NCBI RefSeq assembly: GCF_030063305.1
Contig: NZ_JASISV010000002.1
Span: 310,001-374,000 of the forward strand
Source of the DNA: Salinibacterium sp. G-O1
GTDB lineage: Bacteria; Actinomycetota; Actinomycetes; Actinomycetales; Microbacteriaceae
Direction: 5' to 3'
Length of the DNA stretch: 64,000 nt
A program made the position numbers and the translations under genes. Shown one piece after another: positions 45,520 through 47,611 of this stretch (the stretch's first letter is position 1; each line of letters begins with the position of its first letter). Below the pieces are notes generated by a model, which ran no database searches, had not been told where the DNA came from, and was given only the letters and a program-made list of their open reading frames with translations.

Positions 45520-45780
45520 TTACTCTGAGCTCAGGCGCTTGAGCTCGAGCTTGTCTTCGTTGATCTCGTGAAGAGCAACCGAAAGCGGCTTGTCTTCGAT
45601 GGTCGAGTCGACGAGCGGTCCGACGTTGTCGAAGAGGCTTCCCTCGTGCAGGTCGGCGTAGTAGTCGTTGATCTGGCGGGCGCGCTTCGACGCGAAGATG
45701 ACCAGCTGGTACTTGGAGTCGACCTTCGAGAGAAGTTCGTCGATCGGCGGGTCAATGATGCCGGAGTGCTTGTCAACCAT
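45520..45780 (-). CDS. rpoZ: RNA polymerase omega subunit
   Basis: An 86-residue omega subunit that helps fold the beta-prime subunit. Seen: [33 protein letters not shown], written here as the family's central motif [15 protein letters not shown], and a long C-terminal tail ending in [11 protein letters not shown] chose the ATG at 45780 ([10 protein letters not shown]), just after GGAGCCTC-type spacing; the longer reading has no family match. Its place after gmk is the bacterial norm. Confidence 0.96.
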
Positions 45781-45857
45781 GGAGGCTCCTTGCCTGGTGT
45801 GGATTACGTCGTGCTGCACTGCAAAGCGCACAGTGCATGGTGCGAAGACCGCGAAAC

Positions 45858-46766
45858 TCAGCGGGAAATCGGGGCGCCGATGGGCGCATCCATCAATTCT
45901 ACGACTTCCTGAGCCGCTTGGCTGACTTCTCGGTTGATGACTTTCGCGTCGAACTCGTCCTGGGCGGCCAATTCGACCCTTGCGGTGTCGAGCCTTCGCT
46001 GTTGTTCCTCGGGTTTTTCGGTGCCCCGGCCGATGAGCCTGCGCACCAATTCTTCCCAGGTCGGTGGAAGCAGGAAGACGAGAAGCGCCTCAGACATCAC
46101 GCTTCTGACCTGCCGTGCGCCCTGCAGGTCGATCTCGAGCATCACGCGCTTCCCGGCGGCCAGAGCCTCGTCGATGGGTGGACGCGGGGTGCCGTAGCGG
46201 TAGGAGTTGTGGACGACGGCCCACTCGAGCAGTTCGTTGTCGGCGATCTTTCGATCGAACTCCTCATCGCTCACGAAGTAATAGTGAATTCCATCGATCT
46301 CGCCCGGCCGCGGCGTGCGGGTTGTCGCCGAGACGCTGAGCATGACATCGGGATAGTTCTCGCGGATGTGAGCAGAGACTGTGCCCTTGCCGACGGCCGT
46401 TGGCCCGGCGAGCACGATCAGGCGACTCGGTTCTGCACCCTGACGGTGCACGAGGTAGTCGCGAAGCCGGATGCGCTGGCGAACACCCAGGCCACCCACC
46501 CGCTTCTTGTCTGAGATCCCCAGGTCGAACATGACCCTCGCCACGCGAGTGGGCCCGAGGGTCGGCACGCTGGTGAGAAGTTCGGTTACGCGCAGGCTCG
46601 CTTCGGCGCTGTCCGGGTCGGCCCAGGCTGACTGGGCCACGGCCAGTGCCGTCTTCTGCTTCGACGCGATGGACTGCTTGACGGCGGCCCGAGCGCGGCG
46701 TGCGGCTATGGCTGCTCGACCCGCTGCTGCTCTGTCGACTTCCGGCGGCGCCGGTCTTGGGCTCAT
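45858..46766 (-). CDS. gmk: Integration host factor-like domain fused to guanylate kinase
   Basis: A 302-residue protein about 100 residues longer than usual guanylate kinase. Residues about 10-108 look like actinobacterial integration host factor (mIHF): an N-terminal Ala/Arg-rich helix [14 protein letters not shown], then [20 protein letters not shown] and the [17 protein letters not shown]-contact motif. Residues 115-302 are a complete guanylate kinase: P-loop GPTAVGKG (121-128), [20 protein letters not shown], and [10 protein letters not shown]. It converts GMP to GDP. No internal stop or strong start separates the two halves; both are in frame without interruption. In most actinobacteria these are two adjacent genes. 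It overlaps the pyrF stop by four bases. Confidence 0.93.
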
Positions 46767-47611
46767 GGTGCGACTCCCTCGGCTAGAACAGCGGCCTGCG
46801 TGCTGAGTTCGGATCGGGCACCGTCTGGTCCGGCGCGCAGGACGCTCCGACCGAGGTTTGCAATGACGTTGCCAGACACCGAGCCGAAGAGGGCGGGCAG
46901 GTCGGCGATGAGGGCTCCCTGCTCACCGAATCCCGGTGCCAGCACGGGTGTTTTCGAGAGACTGGTTGCCTCGATGCCGTAGTCGGCCGACCGCACGGTC
47001 GCCCCGATCACCACTCCGACAGAGCCGAGGCCCGAGGCAGAAGAGTTGAGCTGTTGCACGTCACCGACGATACTCGCAGCGACGGTGCGACCACGGTGCT
47101 GTCCGCGGTCGCGCACGGCGGTCTGGGTGTCGACAGACTCGGGGTTCGAGGTGGCCGCAAGGATGAAGAGTCCCTTGCCGCCAGCGTCGGCGAGGCTGAT
47201 CACGTCGGTGAGTGAACCCACGCCCTGGTAGGCCGACAGTGTCATGGCGTCGGCTTCGAGGGCCGACCCCGGCGTGAGCCAGGCAGCGCCGTACGCGGCG
47301 ACGGTCGAACCGACATCGCCACGCTTCGCATCGGCGATGACGAGCAACCCGGCTCCACGCGCCGCGGCGAGTACGGCTTCAAGAGCGGAGAACCCTGCTG
47401 AGCCGAAACGCTCGAAGAAAGCGACCTGCGGCTTGACGATTCCGACGACACCCGCCGCGACATCCACACACCGGAGCCCGAATTCGCGGGCGCCGGCCGC
47501 GGAATCTGGAAGGTTCCACGCGTCGAGCAGGAAGGCGTGCGGATCAATGCCCAGACACAACCGGCCGCTGGCACTGAAGACAGCGTCGAGCCGCTCGCCG
47601 AAACTAAGCAT
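46763..47611 (-). CDS. pyrF: Orotidine-5'-phosphate decarboxylase (long type)
   Basis: A 282-residue PyrF for the last step to UMP. The catalytic motif is [16 protein letters not shown] (about residues 92-107), with [12 protein letters not shown] upstream and APGFGEQGA near the end. The long form and [23 protein letters not shown] opening are typical of actinobacteria. It overlaps carB by eight bases. pyrD, often next to it, is missing here. Confidence 0.96.

Follow-up and report, generated by a model that had tools for sequence, protein, structure and literature searches.

Does the frame that encodes guanylate kinase in Salinibacterium sp. G-O1 also encode a member of the actinobacterial integration host factor family, and if so, are the two made as one chain, and is the arrangement peculiar to that genome? 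Passages of PMC6155035 describe gmk and rpoZ of M. tuberculosis as lying downstream of mihF, as separate genes, with mihF essential, and PMC4255298 places sIHF in nearly all actinobacteria. An earlier note, made from the letters of the window (the whole 64,000-nucleotide stretch analysed), had claimed that here 302 uninterrupted codons carry an mIHF-like half followed by a guanylate kinase. Among the papers listed by full-text searches for the pairing, none describes an mIHF-gmk fusion, judging by titles and the openings of abstracts; NCBI types NF041260 as 'equivalog_domain', and databases may thus already know this domain as part of longer proteins.

Results

We found the claimed frame, for which the note had given no strand, on the minus strand, where it runs for 302 codons from an ATG at 46766 to a stop at 45858-45860; the plus strand across 45858..46766 is interrupted by stops. 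The features of the locus are:

45858..46766, minus strand: mihF-gmk fusion gene of 302 codons, starting with ATG
46455..46736, minus strand: actinobacterial IHF (mIHF/sIHF) domain, residues 11-104 (NF041260, 67.7 bits; Foldseek to 6bek, 4itq, 6tob)
46464..46613, minus strand: S13-like H2TH motif inside the mIHF domain, residues 52-101 (PF22525)
46425..46454, minus strand: linker, residues 105-114, of a length that varies across Microbacteriaceae
45891..46424, minus strand: guanylate kinase, residues 115-292 (TIGR03263, 216.2 bits; Foldseek to M. tuberculosis Gmk 1z8f/1s4q)
46383..46406, minus strand: P-loop GPTAVGKG, residues 121-128 (sequence; kept in Microbacteriaceae)
46763..46766, minus strand: ATGA, the pyrF stop overlapping the start of the fused gene (sequence)
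46763..47611, minus strand: pyrF, upstream neighbour (profile match)
45520..45831, minus strand: rpoZ, downstream neighbour (profile match)

Both curated cut-offs are exceeded: the mIHF half scores 67.7 bits with NF041260 (actino_IHF; cut-off 60), and 71.8 bits when taken alone, and the kinase half scores 216.2 bits with TIGR03263 (guanylate kinase; cut-off 160.45). Pfam finds H2TH_5 (1.9e-10) and Guanylate_kin (7.2e-41) in the fused protein, and both families are matched at E 0.001 by 52/52 aligned members. By sequence, the first half lies nearest to the solved structures of sIHF (4itq) and mIHF (6tob), and the second half to that of M. tuberculosis Gmk. The identity of both halves is far beyond chance, and one frame encodes an actinobacterial IHF domain, a short linker and a complete guanylate kinase; the first half is an mIHF-family domain, not the small stand-alone member of about 105 aa. 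Residues 60-74 are [15 protein letters not shown], residues 92-98 are GLGVRQR, and the P-loop lies at 121-128, just where the note had put it. The ATGA overlap with pyrF spans four bases and would couple translation of the two genes; going by the match offset, 115/157 fused loci have such an overlap.

The genome of Salinibacterium sp. G-O1 is scored 99.95% complete, and both the fused protein and NF041260 have a single match in it. A search for a separate mihF, with NF041260 and the looser PF22525 profiles, found no second mIHF in this genome, nor did the fused protein as query find another Gmk there. PF22525 gave two further weak matches: the better one was rejected as ribosomal S13 (Pfam 5.8e-33), and the weaker (L034; E 0.66) overlaps several frames and falls far under the cut-off. 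The fused gene is the sole source of mIHF and Gmk that we found in its own genome.

The arrangement is not peculiar to the source genome; the mIHF-gmk fusion is the rule in Microbacteriaceae. Our survey of gmk across the family covered 249 genomes, 232 of which had an mIHF match at E 0.001; G013 and G207, with a weak mIHF match and gmk alone, were set aside, leaving 230 with a recognised mIHF. In 229 of these mIHF is fused to gmk in one frame, as judged by open-frame parsing of the loci or, where a locus was absent, by a single match spanning both halves; this count includes G147, whose contig ends inside gmk, beyond the joined part, G153, in which the linker is longer, and G056, G209, G192 and G238, judged fused solely from open frames of 337-401 codons. 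Fourteen rows besides G009 show stop codons inside the match, and the ten of them that have loci are single frames; the other four are G056, G209, G192 and G238. G009 (L175; 86% complete) is the one exception, with its mIHF and gmk halves in two frames at the linker, possibly through sequencing error. The other 19 genomes comprise 15 that have gmk minus the mIHF half and 4 without a match, all incomplete (59-88%). That two genes were joined in the source genome by a fault of sequencing or assembly, an idea to which we give practically no credence, is refuted by this survey, in which single-contig genomes are among the 229 of 230 with the fusion and the lone G009 is the likelier error; nothing in the source genome supports it.

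Some minor matches in the family deserve mention. A single-contig genome of 927,303 bases (G015; locus L174) has the fusion at 43% identity. Weak second NF041260 matches in 12 other family genomes were rejected, none having matched the mIHF or Gmk of the window by blastp; in L124, one of eleven short ones, the first residues are identical to those of the S13 of L033. Another, L122 (G212:C1:450869-451063; E 5e-6), lies inside a 293-aa frame that is neither S13 nor the fusion, and may be a remote relative of mIHF carried by another element. A table in PMC7839047 includes an 'integration host factor' of 10 kDa found in a Clavibacter strain; this is perhaps an HU-type protein, and were it an mIHF, the fusion would hardly be the sole copy there.

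Outside the family, the two genes are neighbours in the loci parsed. An order sample of 149 genomes (10 from Microbacteriaceae) and a phylum sample of 144 (one from Microbacteriaceae) left 139 and 143 others, respectively, and none of the 137 and 139 of these with a listed match showed the fusion, a count in which a row covering the kinase alone would also fit a fusion whose N-terminal half has diverged very far. G341 and G381 in the order, and G424 and G451 in the phylum, matched weakly and were not among the matches listed; G392 and G471, also in the samples, had no match. G504, the sole stop-free phylum row spanning both halves, was rejected as an independent fusion, being two genes in different frames, and eight order rows and the phylum row G481 that reach towards the mIHF half proved to be separate genes on inspection of their loci. 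The note had stated that mihF and gmk are neighbouring separate genes in most actinobacteria and had seen stop loss as a simple route to fusion, and the outgroup agrees with it: in 28 parsed loci the two genes are in tandem and separate, with the P-loop codon 27-180 nt past the mihF stop and the two in the same frame in 9, so that loss of the stop together with loss of the gmk start would be a short path.

Two oddities appeared among the order genomes. In an order family (f8; L048, L055, L056, L058 and L059, and L057 by eye), gmk is without a usual start: from 60 nt before the mihF stop to the P-loop there is no in-frame ATG, GTG or TTG, and the candidate start is a CTG that shares bases with the mihF stop (CTGA), which suggests a stop-restart at the CTG codon. 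In a family f18 genome scored 100% complete (G281:C1:1901776-1902323), gmk is in two pieces in different open frames, either a broken gene or a sequencing error.

A tree of joined pyrF, gmk and rpoZ (96 of 108 rows, 74 from Microbacteriaceae) gathers all 74 family rows into a single clade (SH-aLRT 99.8). It requires 3 changes, consistent with a single fusion after which the mIHF half was lost twice, once in genera g66 and g71 and once in g11, g14 and g82. The losses fall inside the fused rows solely through L022, L178 and L002 (support 81-91; L022 is a long branch), and an early kinase-only branch may be the true history instead. Six rows were left out as long or doubtful (L174, L118, L106, L168, L170, L053) and six more because they had no pyrF match (L099, L045, L049, L169, L172, L177); L174 and L118 are fused and long-branched, and their omission favours a tidy tree. 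A tree of the kinase alone (108 rows), with 7 changes and its long rows scattered, was discarded for the joined one.

The genera without the mIHF half (L098-L112) have a short Gmk, mostly directly behind pyrF: in 13/15 gmk-only loci no more than 30 nt separate the pyrF end from the kinase match, in L100 the pyrF end lies 283 nt before the match, and L099 has no pyrF in the stretch examined. Most are small genomes; g71, however, has 2.1-2.4 Mb. No clear mIHF was found elsewhere in those genomes, and with two genus groups lacking both the half and any other mIHF, the mIHF half appears dispensable there.

Structure prediction of the N-terminal part, one of the checks that the note had proposed, returned sIHF and mIHF as the best PDB matches. 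The AlphaFold2 model of residues 1-108 has a pLDDT of 93.8, and its four best PDB chains by Foldseek are from 6bek (two), 4itq and 6tob, led by sIHF on DNA (6bek; E 2.9e-5, TM 0.87 by target); the alignment behind the model includes stand-alone mIHFs, which aids the fold, and the folded sequence is the window's. Residues 1-108 are predicted to take the sIHF/mIHF fold, with a long N-terminal helix and an H2TH. Both halves are under purifying selection: over 92 close pairs the median dN/dS is 0.096 (highest 0.36) in the mIHF half and 0.079 in the kinase half; between the window and Salinibacterium xinjiangense, the nearest named relative (94%), the mIHF half has a dN of 0.058 and a dS of 1.12. 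Conservation is 100% (rounded) at D11, R23, R26, A27, K30, G71 and Q97 across 150 different fused proteins, and R23, R26, G71, G92 and Q97 are invariant in a joint alignment of 58 fused and stand-alone sequences.

The basic residues bear on whether this half still binds DNA. The note had thought that binding may be retained because the contact motif is intact, and a comparison of 38 fused proteins with 28 stand-alone mIHFs gives a mixed picture: most conserved basic residues are kept in the fused half (R12, R23, R26, K30, R59, R/K74, K88, R89), as is the GLGxxQ motif, but 'intact' is too strong because three basic positions are mostly lost. All three are basic in 96-100% of the stand-alone proteins: position 18 is K in 100% of these and A in 97% of the fused; position 34 is K in 93% and A in 63%; and position 91 is R in 96% and G in 89%. 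Basic residues have also been gained (R98, R38), and the median net charge is +8 in the fused half and +6 in stand-alone mIHF, with +11 in the source protein. One could read the three substitutions, together with the absence of the half from some genera, as the mark of a domain that no longer binds DNA and has been retained solely as an extension that serves structure or solubility, or to regulate the kinase. We consider this unlikely, although worth entertaining, since most of the basic residues and GLGxxQ persist, R98 and R38 have been added, net charge is not reduced and the median dN/dS is about 0.10; variable linker length would likewise argue against tight packing of an extension on the kinase.

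The kinase half looks catalytically complete. The full-length AlphaFold2 model, built from fused sequences alone, has a pLDDT of 93.6 and a pTM of 0.69, and its kinase part matches M. tuberculosis Gmk 1z8f/1s4q by Foldseek. Among 52 members, G121, P122, V125, G126, K127, G128, S144, R150, R153, E156, Y162, E181, Y191, G192, T193 and D213 are invariant, and these include the positions that we take to bind GMP. Guanylate kinase activity would be expected because the fused gene is the sole Gmk match in its genome. The P-loop has GKG, not GKS/T, and M. tuberculosis Gmk has GKS; GKG was rejected as a mark of the fusion, being found also in 25/28 separate-gene loci.

A fused gene could nonetheless yield separate or additional products, through internal initiation or through cleavage of the linker. 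The linker is variable (residues 101-115 here; 14 to 26 in length across 150 fused members), the source gene has an in-frame GTG at residue 106, some start codon occurs at residues 100-116 in 63/150 members, and actinobacteria often use weak or leaderless starts; moreover, at residue 60, inside the H2TH part, relatives have a GTG in 78/150 members, with an SD-like word before it in 55. However, a start at residues 100-116 comes with an SD-like word in 13/150 and is ATG in 6/150, and the check for an internal start near the kinase, run here in sequence, found no conserved start codon there in 150 members. The source gene has six in-frame start codons at residues 60-121, none preceded by an SD-like word, and at residue 60 itself it has no start codon. 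The residue-60 signal is weakened because its controls look alike: SD-like words precede that residue in 109/150 members irrespective of its codon, the share of GTG at V60, 0.54, falls within the 0.01-0.76 of other conserved valines, and SD-like words are seen in 149 members at valine 130 and in 102 at valine 230, all in line with coding. These start tests are crude, with a background of SD-like words over codon positions of 0.19; the first start of the gene has an SD-like word in 109/144 members when the nearest start is taken and in 112/150 when starts are chosen with a preference for such words. An internal start at residue 60 in relatives is conceivable, and its product, if made, would be without the long N-terminal helix, but we hold separate products as a whole to be quite improbable.

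Discussion

The reading that we favour, and think probable, is a two-domain single chain, a DNA-binding mIHF and an active kinase, which arose by one fusion and is probably held on the nucleoid. One gene would give one protein as its main product, with an mIHF-type H2TH domain, a short flexible linker and an ordinary guanylate kinase; the N-terminal domain would bind DNA, and the kinase would convert GMP and ATP to GDP and ADP. The fusion would have a single origin in an ancestor of Microbacteriaceae, where the mihF stop and the separate gmk start would have been lost between tightly spaced genes of the operon pyrF-mihF-gmk-rpoZ, and it would then have been kept as the sole mIHF and the sole Gmk. 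Each kinase molecule, carrying a DNA-binding domain, would probably be held in part on the nucleoid. A counterpoint to the two-domain single chain is stoichiometric: few proteins of M. tuberculosis are more abundant than mIHF (PMC6155035), and a 1:1 fusion requires much kinase or little mIHF.

One could further envision a chromosome-tethered GMP kinase, in most Microbacteriaceae, whose halves communicate, such that GMP/GDP or (p)ppGpp state alters DNA binding, or DNA occupancy alters kinase output. We regard this as a long shot; if true, one molecule would set both nucleotide supply and nucleoid packing. Even as a simple tether, the two-domain chain might couple nucleotide supply physically to the chromosome, and it readily lends itself to testing whether a metabolic enzyme can be anchored or controlled by a nucleoid protein. 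An mIHF welded to an essential nucleotide kinase in nearly all sampled members of a family and apparently discarded by some genera is, in addition, a natural experiment on the role of mIHF.

We see here an unusual domain fusion, kept by most of a single family, and not a system of a novel type. Its first half resembles mIHF (Rv1388) and sIHF (SCO1480), the NF041260 family, in scoring over the cut-off, in its H2TH fold, in its invariant residues and in its position upstream of gmk; the stand-alone proteins, by contrast, are of about 105-107 aa, and the fused half, joined to Gmk, differs from them by a 2-residue insert around W48, extra C-terminal basic residues and the changes at 18, 34 and 91. 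Among the stand-alone proteins, mIHF-80 is given as a homodimer in solution (PMC3724605), and sIHF as binding as a monomer (PMC10028186). The second half resembles bacterial Gmk (TIGR03263; M. tuberculosis Rv1389), with a full kinase domain and P-loop at 50-52% identity in structure alignments; unlike the M. tuberculosis enzyme it is preceded by an N-terminal DNA-binding-type domain and has GKG where that enzyme has GKS.

Joining of a guanylate kinase fold to other domains is known from MAGUKs and other multi-domain guanylate-kinase-like proteins of animals. The GK domain of MAGUKs is a protein-binding module, whereas the bacterial enzyme here appears to be catalytically complete. Ribosomal protein uS13 has the H2TH core in common with the fusion and gives weak second matches, but it is an RNA-binding ribosomal protein encoded by a separate gene. 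In nearly all sampled Microbacteriaceae, the label 'guanylate kinase' covers just half of the protein.
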